This document shows positions 24,368 to 34,475 of a stretch of DNA of 34,475 nt, piece after piece. The stretch's first letter is position 1. The number at the start of each line of letters is the position of its first letter. A program made the position numbers and the translations under genes. This DNA is from a virus. Under the pieces are notes generated by a model. That model did no database searches. It was not told the origin of the DNA and saw only the letters and a list, made by a program, of their open reading frames with translations. Location of the stretch: positions 1-34,475 of the IMG/VR virus record IMGVR_UViG_3300032278_004279. One strand, given 5' to 3'.

Positions 24368-26964
24368 AACTCCGGGCGCTTCTGCTGGCCTCTTTCCTTG
24401 CGCTTCCGAACGCGGCGAAGGCCGATCCGATCAGCGCACTGATTACCACGGCGCTGTCGAGCCTGACGACCGCGTTCGCGGCGCTCGGCGTGGCACAACC
24501 GGGCATCTGGGCCGTTGCCACGCTGCGGCTCGGCGGGTCGCTTCTGCTGTCTGCCGCGTCCAACGCGCTTTTCGGGCCGAAGATGCCGAAGGCGCAGGAT
24601 CTGGGCCGGGAACTGGCCGCGCCGACGACCGAACCCGCATACCGCTTCGTCTATGGCGAAGGGCGGGCGACGGGAACGCCGGTCGGAACGCCGGTTCGCG
24701 GGCGGTTCATCTGGGGGTGCTGGATACTCAACTCGCGGCCTTCATCGCTGCCGACCTTCACGCTCTATCTGGACAAGCGGCCTGTCGCTCTGTCGGGCGA
24801 TGCCTTCGATTTCACTGGCGACGGCGCCGTCGGGACAACGCATCCGTTTCTCAACCATACGCACATCTGGATCAGCCGGGGCGATCAGACGTCGCCGCCC
24901 GACATGTTCCTGGACGAAGTGCCGTGGGCTGCGGGCGCGGACGAGGAACTGTGGAAGGCCACGGACGGCTGGCAGGGGCGCACGGTCCTGTGGGCGCGGT
25001 TCGCGGCTGGCGATGGCGGGCAGCGGCAGGAGCGGTGGCCGTCCACGCCGCCAATGGTCGAGGTCGAGGGCAAGTGGTCGCTCATCTACGACCCGCGCGA
25101 GGGCGGGCATGACCCGGACGACCCGGACACGTGGGAGTGGTCGGACAACCACGCGCTCTGTGTGCTGGACGCACTGACCCAGAACCCGATCCGGCAGTAT
25201 CGGGCGAACAACCTGCACATGGCGTCCTTCATCGACGCCGCCGACGTGTCCGACGAACTGGTGGACCTGAAATCCGGCGGGACGGAGCGGCGGTATCGCG
25301 TGGCCGGAACGCTGGCCTTCGACGTGGGGGAAATCGAGGATCAGGTGAACCCGCTGGTGCTGTCCGGCGGCGGCAACCTGATCCGCATCGGCGGCAAGCT
25401 GGGTCTGGCCTGCGGGGAATACCGTGCGCCGACCCTCACCGTCTCGGACTTCATGGATGGCGGCTTCGAGGCGCAGGAACTGGCCGACGAACACGAGTTG
25501 GTGACGACGCTGCGGGTCTCCTACCTGTCGCCCGCTCGGGGCTACGAGACGGCGCAGTTGAAGCCGTGGGATATCCCCGGCGCTCTGGCGGAGGACGGCG
25601 GCGTCCGCACGGTGCGGGATATGCCGCTGTCATTCTGCCCCTCGGCAACGCAGGCCATGCGGATCCGCAAGATCGAAGGCCTGCGGATGCGGCGGCAGCA
25701 GCAGATCACGGCGATCCTGCCGCCGGAGTGCTTCGACCTGATCGGCGGCTCGACGTTCACGCTGGCCGGGGTCGAATGGCTGTCGGAGTTCGATGGCGTC
25801 TACGAGGTTCAGAGCATCAACCCCGGTCTCGATCCCATCGGGGAGAGCGGTGAAGTGGCGATGCGGCTTCCGGCGACGTTCGTCCTGCACGACGCCAGCA
25901 TCTACGCATGGGATGAGGACACCGAAGAGGAAGAGGTAGACAACGAGCCGTATATCGCGGACCGGCAGGCGCTGCGGCCTCCGGGGGCGATCAGCGCACA
26001 GACCGGGCCGGATCACGACCTGAACACCGGGACGCAGGTCATCCCGCGCATCCGGTTCAGCTTCGACCCGTCGCCGTCCGAACTGGTCACCGGCTATGCA
26101 TGGGACTGGCGCGTTGACAGCGGCGACTGGCAGTCGGGCGGGACGATCAGCAAGGATACGCTGGACGGGTCGGGCGATGTGTTCGGGCACCTGATTTCCT
26201 CGGGACCGCTGGCCTCGCACGATATCCGGGTGTGGGCGGTCGCCGGGTCGCAGGAAAGCGCGAAGATCAGCATTTCCGGCATCATTCCGGGCCTGCCGCT
26301 GACGATCAACACGGTCACGGCGGGGCCGGGGATCATTACCTTCGACGTGGACACGCCGGACAGTTCGTCGTTCCAAGGCGTGGAAGTCGGGCGATCCTCC
26401 GTTGGTGCCGGGTCCGGTTCGGCAACTGTCGTCTCCGGGATCATCCCGCTGGACCCGGACGAGTTGTCGGCGGATGCGGTGGCGGGCGATCCGGCTGCGG
26501 CAAACGTGGTGGTCAACGGGGATTTCGCATCCTCGGCCGGGTGGACGACCCCCGGCGGCTGGTCCATCGGATCGGGCGTGGCAAGCCATGCCGCGAACGG
26601 CGCGAACAACACGATGTTCCGCACAGCTTCGCTGGTGGCGGGGCAAACCTACGTCCTTTCGGTGGACATGCCGTCTTACACGGCAGGCTCGGCGCTGATG
26701 CGGCTGATCGGATCCAGCACGGTCAGCACCGGGGCGTTCGGCGCGACCGGGACGCATCAATACACGCTGACGGCTCCGGCATCCCCGACGCAGGTTGGCA
26801 TTCTGGCAGGCACGACCTGCACGGCGACTTTCGACAACTTCACGGTGCGGCCTGTCACGGCGGGCGCACTGACGCACGGCGAGGGTGATTTCTACATCCG
26901 CGTCGTCACCCAGACCGGCCAGCGCGGCGGCTGGCTCGGACCCTACACGCGCACGATCAGGTAA
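24364..26964 (+). CDS. Tail tip / host-specificity (J-like) protein
   Basis: An 866-residue protein from GTG 24364. The N-terminus looks like a signal peptide (LRALLLASFLALPNAAKADP) followed by a second hydrophobic stretch, unusual for a tail protein. The body contains YRFVYGEGRATGTPVGTPV, a DNHALCVLDAL segment, and DLKSGGTERRYRVAGTL, the features of J-like tail tip proteins. About residues 555-700 look fibronectin-III-like. Residues about 715-836 form a carbohydrate-binding-like beta-sandwich (VNGDFASSAGW to ATFDNFTVRPV) similar to that in the last gene of the window. It should contact the host receptor. Confidence 0.85.
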   Translation: MKLRALLLASFLALPNAAKADPISALITTALSSLTTAFAALGVAQPGIWAVATLRLGGSLLLSAASNALFGPKMPKAQDLGRELAAPTTEPAYRFVYGEGRATGTPVGTPVRGRFIWGCWILNSRPSSLPTFTLYLDKRPVALSGDAFDFTGDGAVGTTHPFLNHTHIWISRGDQTSPPDMFLDEVPWAAGADEELWKATDGWQGRTVLWARFAAGDGGQRQERWPSTPPMVEVEGKWSLIYDPREGGHDPDDPDTWEWSDNHALCVLDALTQNPIRQYRANNLHMASFIDAADVSDELVDLKSGGTERRYRVAGTLAFDVGEIEDQVNPLVLSGGGNLIRIGGKLGLACGEYRAPTLTVSDFMDGGFEAQELADEHELVTTLRVSYLSPARGYETAQLKPWDIPGALAEDGGVRTVRDMPLSFCPSATQAMRIRKIEGLRMRRQQQITAILPPECFDLIGGSTFTLAGVEWLSEFDGVYEVQSINPGLDPIGESGEVAMRLPATFVLHDASIYAWDEDTEEEEVDNEPYIADRQALRPPGAISAQTGPDHDLNTGTQVIPRIRFSFDPSPSELVTGYAWDWRVDSGDWQSGGTISKDTLDGSGDVFGHLISSGPLASHDIRVWAVAGSQESAKISISGIIPGLPLTINTVTAGPGIITFDVDTPDSSSFQGVEVGRSSVGAGSGSATVVSGIIPLDPDELSADAVAGDPAAANVVVNGDFASSAGWTTPGGWSIGSGVASHAANGANNTMFRTASLVAGQTYVLSVDMPSYTAGSALMRLIGSSTVSTGAFGATGTHQYTLTAPASPTQVGILAGTTCTATFDNFTVRPVTAGALTHGEGDFYIRVVTQTGQRGGWLGPYTRTIR

Positions 26965-26975
26965 GGCAGGCAGGC

Positions 26976-29426
26976 ATGGCGTATTCCCCTTTCTCGATCC
27001 CCACGACGGGGACCGATCCCAAGGTTGCGGCCAAAGGCTCGACCGAGGATGCGATCAACGATGCAATCGAGGCGGTCCATGATGACCTGCAAACGCACAA
27101 GGCGGCAGCGAACCCGCACGGCGCGACGACCACCAACATCCCCGAAGGGACCAACAAGTATCTGACGGTCGATAACTTCGAGGCGATGGTCAACGGCCAG
27201 ACCGAATACGAGGGGCTGGGGAACGACGACCGCATCCCGTCCATCGTCTCGGGCGTTCTGCGGTGGATCGATGGTACGACCATCGGCGCGGCGATCTGGG
27301 ACCGCCTCGGGGGGCTGATCGCCAGCGGGACGGAGAAGGGAACGCCGGTCGATGCGGACAAGATCGGGTATTCCGACAGCGCGGCGTCCAGCGCGACGAA
27401 GCGCATGTCGTTCGCGCAGCTTGCCGCTTACATATGGTCCAAGACAGGCCCGTCGATTGCCGGTGCGACGGCGAAGGGAACGCTGGTCAGCGGCGACAGC
27501 ATCGCGATTTCCGACAGCGCCAACTCGGGCGTCTCGCGCAAGGCTCTGCTGTCGTCGGTCGCGGCTTATCACTGGACGCAGATGGGGTCGCTGATCGCGG
27601 GCGGCACGAACAAGACGACGCTGGCCGGCGGTGATCGCTTCGTCATTTCCGACAGTCAGGCTTCGAACGCTTCCAAGCGGGTCAGCTTCGACCAGTTCGT
27701 CGCGTCCATGACGCACACCGCGATCCCCGGTCTTTCCACCGCGCTGGCGGGCAAGGCCGACACGTCCCATTCGCACAGCATCGCCAACGTCACCGGCCTT
27801 CAAACGGCGCTGGACGGCAAGGCGGCGACCAGCCACAACCACAGCATCGCCAACGTAACCGGCTTGCAGACCGCGCTGGACGCCAAGGCTGCATCCTCGC
27901 ACACCCACACCGCCGCGCAGGTATCGGGCCTGTCGGACGCGGTTCTGGCGGCGCTCAAGGCGACGGAATCACAAGCGGCGGCATCCGGCCTTGACGACAA
28001 GTTCGTCACGCCGAAGGGTCTGCGCGGGGCCGAGAACGCGATCAGCCAACGCATCGAACAACGGCTTCTGTTCGAACCGCGCCGCGCGTCGGGCGGCTTC
28101 TCCCGGCTTCCGGGCGTGGACATGAGCGACTTCGCCCGGGACTTCAACGGCCCGCCGGCAACGCTTCTCGGGTTCGACCTGAAAGACCAGTCCGCCTCGG
28201 CTGACGGTCAGGTGCTGCGGCTCTACGGCGACGACATCGTGTCCATGCGCGGGCTGGTGCAGCTTGTGCCGGGCCGGAAATACCGCGTCACCGCGCGGCT
28301 GCGGCGGTATCTGAACAGCAGCGATCCGCTGAACGACGACGTGCAACTCTGCGTTGCCTGGCTCGATAACGGCATGGCCTCGGATGGCATGGCAACCCCG
28401 GTGTCGGTTCTGGAATCCGACGCGCTGGTCGCGGCTGACGGGCTGGTGACGTGGAGCGGTGTCATTGCCTCGGCCGACGGTGACGGGGTGGACGCCTTCA
28501 ACCCGAATGCGGTCTATGCGCGGGCCTTCATCCGCATCTACGGCGGCGATCTGCGTCCGGCGACCGACGTGCAGATGCTCTGGATCGAGGACATCACGAA
28601 CGTCCCGGTGACGAGCGGCGACCTGTCGGCATACGAGGACCGGATCGAGGCGCTGGAAGCGGGGCTGGACTGGGCGGCGGTGCAACTGTCGTCGGGGGCC
28701 GATCTGAACACCTATACGACGCCGGGGCCGTTCGTGGTCGCAAGCCCGACGAACGCGCCTTCCGGGGCGGCCGCGCGGCTTCTCGGCAATGTCTTCTGGG
28801 CTGATGCCAGCACGATGATTCAGGAGGTCTGGGAGGCGGAAGGAAGCCTGGGCCGGTCCTGGTGGCGGGCGCGGACTTCCGGGACGTGGCAGGCGTGGCA
28901 GAAGCGCGTTTCGGAAGCGGAATTGTCCGCGACGATCCAGTCGCTGGCAAACAGCCTGACCACGACGCAAAAGGTCGAACACTCGCCTGCGTTCGTGAAT
29001 ACGGGTGCCGCGACAGGGTTCGCGCCGACGCACACCGTCCAGAAGTTTTCCGGCTACCTGGTCGGCAGCGCAACGGCGGGATATTGGCTGCACTTCCAGA
29101 TCGGCATCAGGGGAACCCTGATCTACTCCGCGCATGGCGGCGTCGGGCTTCGGGTATCTCTGCCTTATGCCTGCGATCTGACGGAAGTTGACGGCTTTTC
29201 CATCAACGTTCGCCCCAACGCACAGGTGCCATTCCCTCGCCACGCTTCCGATGTCGGTCTGATCGGTGGCCTCGATGCCGTCGATGCGGATTCCGTCGCC
29301 ATCGGCTTCGAGCGGAACGTGCCGAACCCCGATGTTGATGTTCGCTTCTACGCCCTTTCGGAGTTTCCGAGCGGCACTGAACTCGGACTGACGCTGGAAG
29401 GCAAATACAAGGTGGTCGGCATCTGA
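26976..29426 (+). CDS. Tail fibre protein with repeats and pyocin-knob-like domain
   Basis: An 816-residue fibre. Residues about 112-248 contain three tandem 44-45-residue repeats built around IAxGTxKxT and SDSxxSxxxKR. Next come SHxHSIANVTGLQTALDxKA repeats of 22 residues, a classic trimeric fibre shaft. Residues about 575-648 (DLNTYTTPGPFVV ... WWRARTSGTWQAW) resemble a pyocin knob. The C-terminus, from HTVQKFSGYLVG on, looks like a jelly-roll receptor-binding tip. It shares its last base with the start of the esterase gene. Receptor binding is inferred. Confidence 0.88.
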   Translation: MAYSPFSIPTTGTDPKVAAKGSTEDAINDAIEAVHDDLQTHKAAANPHGATTTNIPEGTNKYLTVDNFEAMVNGQTEYEGLGNDDRIPSIVSGVLRWIDGTTIGAAIWDRLGGLIASGTEKGTPVDADKIGYSDSAASSATKRMSFAQLAAYIWSKTGPSIAGATAKGTLVSGDSIAISDSANSGVSRKALLSSVAAYHWTQMGSLIAGGTNKTTLAGGDRFVISDSQASNASKRVSFDQFVASMTHTAIPGLSTALAGKADTSHSHSIANVTGLQTALDGKAATSHNHSIANVTGLQTALDAKAASSHTHTAAQVSGLSDAVLAALKATESQAAASGLDDKFVTPKGLRGAENAISQRIEQRLLFEPRRASGGFSRLPGVDMSDFARDFNGPPATLLGFDLKDQSASADGQVLRLYGDDIVSMRGLVQLVPGRKYRVTARLRRYLNSSDPLNDDVQLCVAWLDNGMASDGMATPVSVLESDALVAADGLVTWSGVIASADGDGVDAFNPNAVYARAFIRIYGGDLRPATDVQMLWIEDITNVPVTSGDLSAYEDRIEALEAGLDWAAVQLSSGADLNTYTTPGPFVVASPTNAPSGAAARLLGNVFWADASTMIQEVWEAEGSLGRSWWRARTSGTWQAWQKRVSEAELSATIQSLANSLTTTQKVEHSPAFVNTGAATGFAPTHTVQKFSGYLVGSATAGYWLHFQIGIRGTLIYSAHGGVGLRVSLPYACDLTEVDGFSINVRPNAQVPFPRHASDVGLIGGLDAVDADSVAIGFERNVPNPDVDVRFYALSEFPSGTELGLTLEGKYKVVGI
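27753..27884 (+). repeat. 66-bp tandem coding repeat in the fibre gene
   Basis: Two full 66-bp units (27753-27818 and 27819-27884) encode KA-x-T-SH-x-HSIANVTGLQTALD, and a third diverged unit follows (SSHTHTAAQVSGLSDAV). Codons differ between units at several third positions, so the array is old or under protein-level selection. Confidence 0.8.
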
Positions 29427-31183
29427 TGTTCGAGCAGCGCATCACCATTGACGCGGGCAGCGCGAGGCTTCACGGGGTCAAGCAGACCCGCGACGTGCTC
29501 ATGCCGCATCCGCTGGACCGCTCGCGGCTGGCGGATGCCTTCCGGCGGCGGAACAAGGGCAAGACATACGACGTATACGAGTTCCGGGGCATCCCCTACG
29601 CGGACCCGGCGGAAAGCTGGTGGGACGACATGGTGCAGGCCGACCTGCCGTCCGGCGCCTTCGACGCGACGACATACAAGAGCATCTGGCCGACGATCAG
29701 CAGCCCGAGCCGCGCGACGGAACACGGCTGGCGACCGAACGACGGCCTGCGCCGTGGTCTGGCCGAGAGCGACAAGTGGGGTGTGGTTGAGAAGCCGAAC
29801 CTGCTGCTGGATATCTGCACCCCGAACCCGACACCGGGGGCCGACATGCCGGTGATCGTCAACGTCCACGGCGGCAGCAACTACCTCAACGCCCGGACGT
29901 ATCCGCGCTTCTCCGGTCGTGGCATCGCTCGAAAGGGGGTGGTGCATGTCAACCTGACGATCCCGCTGGGGTCGTGGGGCTTCTTCGACCATCCGGCGTT
30001 CGAGGACAGCTTCCAACCGAACCAGATGTATGCCGCCATCCTCGTCGCCCTCGGCTGGGTGCAGGACAATATCCACTGGTTCGGCGGCAGACCCCTCGTC
30101 ACAGGCACCGGCACCAGCGCGGGGGGGCAGGCGTGGACGCACCTGATGCCGATGGCGGGCGACCTGTTCCACCGCATCCAGGCACATTCCGGCGGCGATA
30201 TCTCCCGGCGGGTCACGCGCGAGCATGTCCGCAACCTCGGCAAGCTGTTTCTGGCAACGCTCATCAAGTCGTTCCCGGCGACGTGGGACCCAAGCCGTAC
30301 CATTCAGCAAGTGCTAGACGAGGATGGGGAAGCTGCGGCGCTGCGCCTCGGGCCGACTGAGGAGCAAATCCACCAGTTTATGGGCCAGCGCGGTCAGTGG
30401 AGCGTGAACGGGGCCGGGGCGCTGGTTCGTTCGGTCGCGGGTCTGGTCAACATCTGGCCTATTAACGATGGCGACATCATCCAGCACCAGACGGTGCAGC
30501 AAACCATCGCCGCTGACCGATGGCCTACGAATGTTCAGGCGTGGTTCACCCATGTTCGCGACGAGGCGTCGGTTTTCGACGGCATGAAGGACGCCACCAA
30601 CTCCAACGCGATCCTGCGGCGGGTCAACATCACCGACCCGGCGGAGATTGCCGCTATCGAGGCGATGGTGGAAAGCCCCGGCGACCACACGCCGCGCATC
30701 CTCGCGGGCGAAGTCGTGTTCAAGCTGCCAGCCTATCTTCAGGCTGCGGCGTTCACGGCCAAGGGCGGCACGGCTTGGAACACGGATTTCAACTACGACA
30801 CGCTCGGCAACGGTCGCCGCATTCCGACCCACGCATCGCAGCAGGTCACGTTCACCGGCTTGCCGGAGTGGCAGACGGCGCAGGGGACGACGGCCGAAAG
30901 CCTGCGCCTGACAGCCGGTGATCTGCTGGCAACAGAGGTCTGCACCAACGCCCTCGCGGCCTATGCCATGACCGGCGACCCACGCGGCGACTACGATGCC
31001 GGATACGACGTGGATCTGTTCCCGGCGTCCGACATGGCCGAAGTCGGACAGTTCGATCCGTTCGGGGACGACAGCATCAGCAACGTGGTGGACAACCTGC
31101 CGGCAGACCCTGACCGCCCGACAATCGAGAACGTGCGCGGACTGAACCAAGCGCTTTACGACGCGCTGTCCGCGAACCTGTGA
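29426..31183 (+). CDS. Type-B carboxylesterase in the tail-fibre locus
   Basis: A 585-residue protein with the full type-B carboxylesterase/cholinesterase plan. Motifs: YEFRGIPYADP (51-61), oxyanion loop VNVHGG (145-150), WVQDNIHWFGG (211-221), nucleophile GTSAGG with Ser231, acid Glu380 in VRDEASVF, and His469 in PTHASQQV. All align with the esterase triad. The first 45 residues are not esterase-like and may anchor it to the virion. There is no signal peptide. Its ATG shares one base with the fibre stop, so it is coupled to it. I infer a tail enzyme that removes acyl groups from a host surface polysaccharide; a cytoplasmic esterase carried as cargo is the alternative. Confidence 0.85.
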   Translation: MFEQRITIDAGSARLHGVKQTRDVLMPHPLDRSRLADAFRRRNKGKTYDVYEFRGIPYADPAESWWDDMVQADLPSGAFDATTYKSIWPTISSPSRATEHGWRPNDGLRRGLAESDKWGVVEKPNLLLDICTPNPTPGADMPVIVNVHGGSNYLNARTYPRFSGRGIARKGVVHVNLTIPLGSWGFFDHPAFEDSFQPNQMYAAILVALGWVQDNIHWFGGRPLVTGTGTSAGGQAWTHLMPMAGDLFHRIQAHSGGDISRRVTREHVRNLGKLFLATLIKSFPATWDPSRTIQQVLDEDGEAAALRLGPTEEQIHQFMGQRGQWSVNGAGALVRSVAGLVNIWPINDGDIIQHQTVQQTIAADRWPTNVQAWFTHVRDEASVFDGMKDATNSNAILRRVNITDPAEIAAIEAMVESPGDHTPRILAGEVVFKLPAYLQAAAFTAKGGTAWNTDFNYDTLGNGRRIPTHASQQVTFTGLPEWQTAQGTTAESLRLTAGDLLATEVCTNALAAYAMTGDPRGDYDAGYDVDLFPASDMAEVGQFDPFGDDSISNVVDNLPADPDRPTIENVRGLNQALYDALSANL

Positions 31184-31197
31184 CGCAGGAGTTTCCG

Positions 31198-31635
31198 ATG
31201 CCCTACTCGCGCCGTCCCGCTCTACCGTATGCCGACCGCAGGATCGAATGGTGGTTCGCCATCGTCACCTTCGGATTCGGCCTGTGGATCGCGCGACCGG
31301 AAGAAAGCATGGACAGCCTTGCGTTCGCCGCGCTGCGCCGGGTGCTGGGCGAGGAAGGCTGGGCGATGGTCTTTGCCATAACGGGGACTCTCCATTGCGC
31401 AGCCCTCGGCATCAACGGGCGGCGGTGGTGGACGCCTCTTGTCCGCACCGGAATGGTGGTCATCAACGCCTTCGTCTACGTCAGCTTCGGTTACGGGATA
31501 TACCGGATCGATCCAGCTTCGACGGGTGTCTACACCTACTGCGCCGCCATGGGTCTGGCGGCGAATATCTGCCTCTGGGGCGCGGTCAAGGATTCCCATC
31601 ACGCCATCGGAGTGAAATTTGGTGCTGCCCAGTAA
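31198..31635 (+). CDS. Membrane protein with about four TM segments
   Basis: A 145-residue protein from ATG 31198, with AGGAG six bases upstream; an in-frame GTG at 31180 overlaps the esterase stop but is less well placed. Four hydrophobic segments are seen near residues 18-33, 53-72, 84-105 and 116-136, with short loops and basic ends. It is the first gene of the lysis block, so a holin or antiholin is possible. Tail-adjacent membrane proteins of this size also occur in relatives of the phage without known function. Confidence 0.65.
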   Translation: MPYSRRPALPYADRRIEWWFAIVTFGFGLWIARPEESMDSLAFAALRRVLGEEGWAMVFAITGTLHCAALGINGRRWWTPLVRTGMVVINAFVYVSFGYGIYRIDPASTGVYTYCAAMGLAANICLWGAVKDSHHAIGVKFGAAQ

Positions 31636-31960: not shown

Positions 31961-32614
31961 ATGAAGATCACCCCTCGGGTGGCGATGGAAGTCGCTGCCC
32001 ACGAAGGCCTTGTGCGCCAAGCCTATAAGGACAGCGTTGGCGTATGGACGTGGAGCGTCGGCATCACGTCGGCCAGCGGTCATTCGGTCGAGCGGTATAT
32101 CGGCAAGCCGCAGCCTCTGGAGACGTGCCTGTCGATCTGGATCTGGGTTCTCGAAAAATATGCGGACGACGTGCGCACCGTGCTTCCCGGCCTGAGCGAA
32201 GCGCAATTCGCGGCGGCTCTCAGCTTTCACTACAACACCGGGGCGATCAGCCGCGCCGGTTGGGTGAAAAAGTGGAAAGCCGGAGACGTGGCGGGGGCGC
32301 GAAAGTCTTTCATGGACTGGCGCAAGCCGCCGGAAATCATTCCGCGCCGCCAGAAAGAGCGCGATCTGTTCTTCTCGGGCATGTGGTCGAGCGACGGCAC
32401 CATGACCGAATATACCCGCCTGACGAAGAACCACACACCCGTCTGGTCGAGCGCGAAGAAGATCGACGTGTCTGCCGCGCTGGTGCGGCTGCTGAACCCC
32501 ACTGAGCCGCCGCATCGCCCGGACGTTGAACCCGTCCCGCCCGCCGCGGCGTCGGGCTTCTGGGCCGTGCTGGTCAAGGCGCTGGCATCCATCTTCAAGA
32601 GGAATGCACGATGA
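31961..32614 (+). CDS. GH24 lysozyme (endolysin)
   Basis: A 217-residue protein with the phage lysozyme active site AHEGLVRQAYKDSVGVWTWSVG: Glu15, Asp24 and Thr30 with the exact E-8-D-5-T spacing of T4 lysozyme. SEAQFAAALSFHYNTGAI and KSFMDWRKPPEIIPRRQKERDLF complete the muramidase fold. It cleaves N-acetylmuramic acid-N-acetylglucosamine bonds. No N-terminal signal or SAR helix is seen, so holin-dependent release is expected. The C-terminal 25 residues after a Pro-rich linker (GFWAVLVKALASIFKRN) are amphipathic and could bind membrane, an unusual extra. The start has a weak leader. Confidence 0.93.
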   Translation: MKITPRVAMEVAAHEGLVRQAYKDSVGVWTWSVGITSASGHSVERYIGKPQPLETCLSIWIWVLEKYADDVRTVLPGLSEAQFAAALSFHYNTGAISRAGWVKKWKAGDVAGARKSFMDWRKPPEIIPRRQKERDLFFSGMWSSDGTMTEYTRLTKNHTPVWSSAKKIDVSAALVRLLNPTEPPHRPDVEPVPPAAASGFWAVLVKALASIFKRNAR

Positions 32615-33095: not shown

Positions 33096-33225
33096 CTTCT
33101 GCGATCTTGCCCGACCGATGCTGACCGACGATGCCGATCTGGCGGGGACAATCGTGCAGCGCGACCGGGCGCTGGCGCGGGAGATGAACCGGCACAACCT
33201 GCTGGTGGAGGGGTGCGCACGATGA
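33028..33225 (+). CDS. Rz1-like outer-membrane spanin lipoprotein
   Basis: A 65-residue protein from ATG 33028 (GGGAG upstream). A signal sequence ends at a lipobox-like ATASC with Cys17. The mature part reads GNFCDLARPMLTDDADLAG and ends REMNRHNLLVEGCAR; the FC-x-x-A-R/K-P start and the HN ... C end are typical of o-spanin-like phage lipoproteins. It overlaps the i-spanin gene by 68 bases in another frame. Together they fuse inner and outer membranes at the end of lysis. Confidence 0.8.
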   Translation: MMKSIAAMTMLCATASCGTVAGNFCDLARPMLTDDADLAGTIVQRDRALAREMNRHNLLVEGCAR

Positions 33226-34475
33226 TGGGTCTTTCGATGGGCATGGCGCTCGGCAGTCGCTCCCGCGTGGCCGCAGCCGTCTCCCGGCTCTGGAACGATA
33301 GCGCGGACAAGCTCTGGATCGTCACGCCTTCGCCGTGGGGGACGGCGCTGGCCTATCGGTTCAATCGCAACGTGGGTGGATCGGGCGGGACGGACCTCGG
33401 CTCACCGTGGGAGCCGTTCCGGCGGACGGGCGTGTTCGAGGTCGCCACCGTCGAGGAAATGCCGAACGAACTCAGCACGGCATTCATCTACGGCAACGAC
33501 ACCGGCTCGTTCGATTACGCGATGCAGCTCGGCGCAGGGGCCTTCGCCTTCGGCGGATCCTACCACGGCGGGGAGACCGTCGTGTCCGAGACGTGGCGGG
33601 CCGACGGCAGCGTGATCGACCCGGCAGAGGACGCGGAAGGCAACACCTTCCGCCTGACGCGTGAGACACTGGTGGACTACGGCAGCGGCAACACGATGAC
33701 GGTAAATTACGACCTGACCATCGGCCCCTCCGGCGTTCTGACCGAGGCGGTTTCGTTCACGTCGGCCGCACCCTTCGCCTCGGGGCAATTCCCCGGCATG
33801 GAGATCGCGGAATCGGTCTTCACGCGGGCCATTGTCGGCGAGACGACCACGAACCTCGTCAGCGGCAAGAACACCCTGAGCGGCGGCGACGTGACGCTGC
33901 GGTCCCCGTTCACGGGCCACACGATCCGCGTCGTCTCGGACGCCGCGGCGCACCCTGCCTATGCCGAGACCTACGTTCAGGTCGCCGGTCGCTCCAAACT
34001 GTATTTCCGCCTCAACAGCACGGCAGGCGCGGCGCTCGGGACGCGGGCGTCGTCGCGGACGATCACGTTCGGCAAGGGCGAGGCTGACCCGGTATTCGAC
34101 GGCGGGCTGGTGTCCAACGGCGGTTTCGAGGCGGGGCTGAGCAGTTGGAACGCACCGAACGGCTGGACGGCCCCCGACGGTGTGGCGGTCGGCAGCAGCG
34201 TCCCGGCCTTCAACAGCCTGACGCAGACGCTGGCTTCGCCGCAGACCGGCGCGGGCAACTACACCCTGTCGTTCGACATCACCGTGTCGGCCGGCGCGAT
34301 GCGTCCCCGCCTGCGCAACTCCGGCGCCATCACCGGCAGCATCGCCGCCGTCAGCACGTCGGGCAGCTACAGCGCCACCTTCACCGGGGCAACCGACGTG
34401 GCACAGGTGCAATTCCAGGCGGAGTCGGCCGGCTTCACCGGGACCATCGACAACGTGCGGCTGGTGCGGGCCTGA
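33222..34475 (+). CDS. Putative receptor-binding protein with C-terminal CBM-like domain
   Basis: A 417-residue protein from ATG 33222, overlapping the previous stop; GGAGG lies 10 bases upstream. No signal peptide is seen. The middle is beta-rich (FAFGGSYHGGETVVSETW, LTRETLVDYGSGNTMTV, FASGQFPGMEIAES). Residues about 293-417 form a carbohydrate-binding-like beta-sandwich (VSNGGFEAGLSSW at the start, GTIDNVRLVRA at the end), similar in layout to the C-terminus of the tail tip protein. A virion-associated glycan-binding protein is likely, but no family is recognised for the first 290 residues. The gene ends on the last base of the window. Confidence 0.7.
   Translation: MMGLSMGMALGSRSRVAAAVSRLWNDSADKLWIVTPSPWGTALAYRFNRNVGGSGGTDLGSPWEPFRRTGVFEVATVEEMPNELSTAFIYGNDTGSFDYAMQLGAGAFAFGGSYHGGETVVSETWRADGSVIDPAEDAEGNTFRLTRETLVDYGSGNTMTVNYDLTIGPSGVLTEAVSFTSAAPFASGQFPGMEIAESVFTRAIVGETTTNLVSGKNTLSGGDVTLRSPFTGHTIRVVSDAAAHPAYAETYVQVAGRSKLYFRLNSTAGAALGTRASSRTITFGKGEADPVFDGGLVSNGGFEAGLSSWNAPNGWTAPDGVAVGSSVPAFNSLTQTLASPQTGAGNYTLSFDITVSAGAMRPRLRNSGAITGSIAAVSTSGSYSATFTGATDVAQVQFQAESAGFTGTIDNVRLVRA

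Follow-up and report, generated by a model that had tools for sequence, protein, structure and literature searches.

A type-B carboxylesterase encoded directly after a phage tail fibre: an unexpected enzyme family for a probable tail deacylase

What is the role of a carboxylesterase of the cholinesterase type that is encoded between the tail fibre gene and the lysis genes of a phage? The question is raised by a virus record of IMG/VR of 34,475 bases, the whole stretch analysed and referred to here as the window, which has the gene order of a tailed phage: terminase, portal, head protease, major capsid protein, tape measure, J-like tail tip, fibre and lysis genes. The tail deacetylases described in the literature covered are of the SGNH type, e.g., gp63.1 of Escherichia phage G7C, gp41 of Acinetobacter phage Aristophanes and the receptor-binding proteins of Klebsiella prophages (PMC8471582, PMC13123978), in agreement with the initial annotation of this locus. 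Neither a type-B carboxylesterase nor a p-nitrobenzyl esterase of a phage tail was found in the literature covered, which was mostly open-access.

The reading frame at 29426-31183 of the plus strand is open and intact, and its product of 585 amino acids is, judged from its sequence, an intact type-B carboxylesterase (PF00135) with predicted activity. It matches the Pfam family COesterase (PF00135.34) with an E-value of 9.2e-26 and 91.3 bits, the cut-off being 27 bits, in a partial match that covers only residues 44-386 of the protein and positions 20-322 of the 515 in the profile. No family of PHROGs or NCBIfam matches the protein, and SGNH families match neither the esterase nor the window's fibre. 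The closest relatives by sequence in the PDB are p-nitrobenzyl esterase (1qe3), cholinesterases and liver carboxylesterases. The hallmarks on which the initial annotation had based its assignment were confirmed in place, i.e., the catalytic residues S231 (in GTSAG), E380 (in RDEA) and H469, and the oxyanion loop H148-G149-G150. The secretion signal is also absent, as had been claimed: the highest Kyte-Doolittle hydrophobicity of any 12-mer within residues 1-51 is 0.24, versus strongly hydrophobic values of 1.95-2.72 at the N-terminus of 5/7 bacterial homologues. AlphaFold models, for which few homologues were at hand, reached a pLDDT of 32.5 (single protein) and 34.0 (four sequences, with the prophage member described below left out), and a Foldseek search with the second, low-pLDDT model returned among the matches listed only type-B esterases, with TM scores of 0.2-0.3 (~0.25); the models are of too low a quality to confirm the fold or a docking, and we do not count these matches as evidence.

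The esterase gene is coupled to the fibre gene by a single shared base, the A of the fibre stop TGA being the A of the esterase ATG, CTGATGTT (TGATG). Start/stop overlaps are frequent in phage operons, and an overlap is by itself weak proof of a functional association. The fibre (26976-29426, plus strand) has 816 amino acids, with an N-terminal anchor at residues 1-60 and phage tail repeats (PF12789) at 260-316, and is preceded on the same strand by the J-like tail-tip protein (phrog_5616, 24430-26964), the presumed attachment site for the fibre N-terminus. The GC3 of the esterase gene (0.84) equals that of its neighbours (0.82 in the fibre gene, 0.85 in the tail-tip gene), so that a recent insertion of foreign DNA is ruled against. 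Downstream, the esterase stop is overlapped by the start of a gene for a small hydrophobic protein of 151 amino acids (31180-31635, plus strand), a holin-like candidate by its position. This protein has no Pfam or PHROG family and a 51% identical homologue in L040, a locus without the esterase; it could be a new holin-like protein. The endolysin (Phage_lysozyme, PF00959) follows at 31961-32614 of the same strand. As a separate observation, the tail-tip protein (26570-26961) and the last reading frame (33213-34475) seem by eye to end in a similar 'NGDF/NGGF...W...' stretch, which has no family match and resembles, again by eye, a carbohydrate-binding beta-sandwich; the J protein of the related locus L007 ends comparably.

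Exact-peptide and DNA-pattern scans with the esterase had missed its relatives, and one other member, on the virus contig L094, was found by scanning viral contigs with a broad family alignment. The L094 esterase is 42% identical over residues 5-579 and is encoded directly 3' of a fibre that shares 38% identity with that of the window over 823 amino acids, with the overlap TGATG. Another full-length member (40%, E-value 3e-98) was the single such match among 395 genomes of the family to which a Sulfitobacter genome belongs; it lies in G129, a prophage in a Rhodobacterales-type genome. The complete operon of this prophage comprises terminase, portal, capsid, tape measure, an NlpC-like gene, J (phrog_5616), fibre, esterase and endolysin, and its fibre and esterase genes overlap by ATGA. 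Phage homologues next to fibre genes, which the initial annotation had proposed to look for, thus exist in these two cases, each overlapping a fibre gene at its end; the coupling that it had noted recurs in phages that are otherwise only remotely related in their genes. With the window, three members were found in total, all in the same order (J, fibre, esterase, lysis) and with a start/stop overlap in 3/3. At identities of 38-42%, S231, E380, H469 and the HGG loop are invariant among them, and S231, HGG and H469 remain so when bacterial homologues join the alignment. The nucleophile elbow reads GTSAG, GTSAG and GASAG in the three, keeping the general GxSxG and not the commonest form GESAG; bacterial members of the family also differ at this position (GQS, GRS). 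The phage esterases form one clade (n=3) with a support of 100/100 on a long branch apart from the bacterial esterases. The peptide ENVRGLNQAL at the C-terminus of the window's esterase was considered as a fibre-derived tail-repeat tag and rejected, because the corresponding sequence of the other two members is not a repeat.

Beyond these loci, the full-length esterase gene was found among 395 family, 385 class, 391 order and 378 phylum genomes only in the G129 prophage, the remaining matches being partial and of the ordinary family, and 50,697 phage records gave no further member apart from apparent bacterial DNA. Several candidate homologues were discarded. Of the carboxylesterases in the phage collection such as that of MT835672, the one examined in its context (L073) has as companions a hybrid two-component regulator and a SusC-like gene, as in a Bacteroides-type chromosome; those of S. 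aureus 'phage' records are on UNVERIFIED contigs and ~20% identical; and those of L096 and L097 are host genes at contig ends, the former with a signal peptide and the latter beside an AraC-type regulator. Two records, L073 (MT835672.1) and L104 (OR845003.1), are deposited as phage and marked UNVERIFIED, and could mislead homology searches.

Dissection of the fibre indicates which of its parts is associated with the esterase. The C-terminal ~480 amino acids of the window's fibre are common to the L094 and G129 fibres, and residues 560-816 (~255 residues, 28653-29426, plus strand) were seen only beside the esterase: they are present at 3/3 esterase loci and at 0/36 J-relatives, i.e., loci with the same tail-tip protein and at least 3 kb read beyond J, none of which (0/36) carries the esterase itself. 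This split has a hypergeometric p of ~1e-4, or 2e-4 after clustering at 95%, values that given the small n and shared ancestry serve as a guide and not as proof. In the reciprocal search, the fibre C-terminus was found in 1/395 family genomes, again in G129 at the same locus beside the esterase, and it was not found in the 50,697 phage records. Residues 1-60, in contrast, are common to 21 loci in which this tail tip occurs without the esterase, which indicates that the C-terminus and the esterase move as a module. Moreover, the window and G129 differ in the PHROG families of their terminase (phrog_9 versus phrog_2), portal (phrog_12 versus phrog_145) and capsid (phrog_10 versus phrog_247), and the J protein of G129 gave no BLAST match against that of the window; fibre C-terminus and esterase have therefore travelled together across otherwise different phages. 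The linkage between the two is conserved in all three phages.

What the relatives carry in the fibre slot is informative as well. Among 20 fibres of J-relatives scanned, seven match SGNH/SASA (SASA or GDSL) esterases (L005, L007, L033, L045, L055, L070 and L071), those of L005, L055, L070 and L071 above the Pfam cut-off. The relative nearest in its tail tip is L007 (67% over the best segment), whose fibre carries GDSL, GRND and DNVH, arranged like SGNH blocks I, III and V. Pectate-lyase-like domains match in the fibre of L040, above the cut-off, and in that of L045, and the L005 fibre matches a beta-helix weakly. The window's fibre has no SGNH/SASA, pectate-lyase-like or beta-helix domain. The simplest reading is that the slot after J carries enzymes that edit or cut the host surface glycan, and that the window's lineage would use there a separately encoded type-B esterase in place of a fused SGNH domain. 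The suggestion of the initial annotation that the esterase is a different solution for acyl stripping fits with these fibres. Separately, the L005 fibre (L005:12109-16020) is a single protein of 1304 amino acids with both the SASA esterase domain and the weak beta-helix match, in which deacylation and chain cutting may be joined.

Taken as a whole, we consider it probable that the esterase is a virion-borne acyl esterase which forms a subunit of its own on the tail fibre and deacylates a host surface glycan. In this model, the fibre N-terminus would attach to the J-like tail tip and the C-terminal ~250 residues would bind the esterase, the receptor glycan or both, placing the enzyme at the fibre tip. 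With the Ser231-His469-Glu380 triad and the HGG oxyanion hole, the enzyme would follow the customary acyl-enzyme mechanism. It would take O-acyl groups, most likely O-acetyl, off the surface glycan (capsule, exopolysaccharide or O-antigen) of a host of Rhodobacterales type, and this may let the tail bind or pass the surface layer. A Rhodobacterales host is likely because the same tail tip occurs in genomes of Pseudooceanicola, Pacificibacter, Sulfitobacter and Tranquillimonas. Type-B enzymes are versatile; a lipid or peptidoglycan may be the substrate instead.

The last of these substrates is central to an unlikely alternative, in which the esterase assists lysis by reaching the periplasm through the holin lesion and stripping the peptidoglycan O-acetyl groups that block the endolysin. 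O-acetylation of peptidoglycan blocks lysozyme (PMC6174289), and the esterase lies between fibre and lysis genes in all three loci. However, to our knowledge peptidoglycan O-acetylesterases belong to SGNH or other families, and the esterase tracks the fibre C-terminus and not the endolysin: close homologues of the window's endolysin occur in loci without the esterase (64% identity in L004, 57% in L033), and the three loci do not share one type of endolysin, with lysozymes in the window and G129 and a peptidoglycan-binding/amidase-like protein in L094. The tight linkage to the fibre C-terminus is compatible too with a fibre assembly factor or adaptor that has kept the esterase fold for its structure, catalysis being secondary. 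Chaperones are often encoded directly 3' of fibres, and the two are exchanged as a module between distant phages (PMC10579305). Yet in a scaffold some of the Ser, Glu, His and oxyanion glycines should have been lost, whereas all are invariant here at 38-42% identity, so that we regard this role as quite improbable. Just as doubtful is an enzyme acting outside the virion, released at lysis to clear acylated debris or modify neighbouring cells; the absent signal peptide and the late-gene position agree with it, but it leaves unexplained both the exclusive link to one type of fibre C-terminus and the replacement by fibre-borne esterases in relatives. Finally, carboxylesterases of host type are found at the flanks of some viral contigs (L096 and L097), but a metabolic esterase taken up as bacterial cargo unrelated to the tail is very unlikely in view of the fibre overlap that recurs at three loci, the separate clade, a GC3 like that of the neighbours, the lack of a signal peptide and the restriction of the full-length gene, among the bacterial genomes searched, to one prophage.

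The reading as a virion-borne deacylase can be extended to a two-part receptor module, in which the fibre C-terminal domain would be the docking platform for a separate type-B carboxylesterase, a second, independently recruited family of glycan-deacylating enzymes that would be exchangeable with SGNH-bearing fibres in the slot; we give this extension an even chance of being correct. If true, phage tails have recruited a second serine-esterase family for the task of the SGNH enzymes, and a new class of glycan-editing enzymes would become available for study in marine alphaproteobacteria. The combination of fibre C-terminus and esterase would also provide a simple sequence marker to find more such loci.

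In all, tail deacylases as such are already known, and the window probably encodes one from an unexpected enzyme family. With the p-nitrobenzyl esterase/cholinesterase family (PF00135; 1qe3) the phage esterase shares the above-cut-off match, the GxSxG motif, the HGG loop and the Ser-Glu-His triad, and it differs in its GTSAG elbow, ~40 extra N-terminal residues, family-specific insertions, the absence of a signal peptide and the location of its gene in a phage fibre operon. Acyl-ester hydrolases have also been predicted on the particles of Cellulophaga and Pseudomonas phages, although these are annotated as triacylglycerol lipases and not as type-B carboxylesterases; the review PMC5380687 counts nine phages with predicted virion-associated lipases and describes the predictions as not experimentally validated. 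The SGNH tail-fibre deacetylases G7C gp63.1, Aristophanes gp41 and the Klebsiella proteins are likewise esterases in or beside the receptor-binding protein of a tailed phage, and for both it is proposed that acyl groups are removed while the chain stays uncut; the window's esterase belongs to another enzyme family and is a polypeptide of its own, not a domain of the fibre. The same difference separates it from the SGNH/SASA fibres of its own relatives, which occupy the same slot after the J-like protein and, in L005, L007, L045 and L070, share the N-terminal anchor, but have the SGNH/SASA domain fused into the fibre, whereas the window has a separate type-B enzyme. A parallel in layout is provided by Klebsiella prophages, in which SGNH fibres are active esterases and fibres lacking the domain have SGNH proteins encoded adjacently (PMC13123978), an arrangement like that of the window with a different enzyme.
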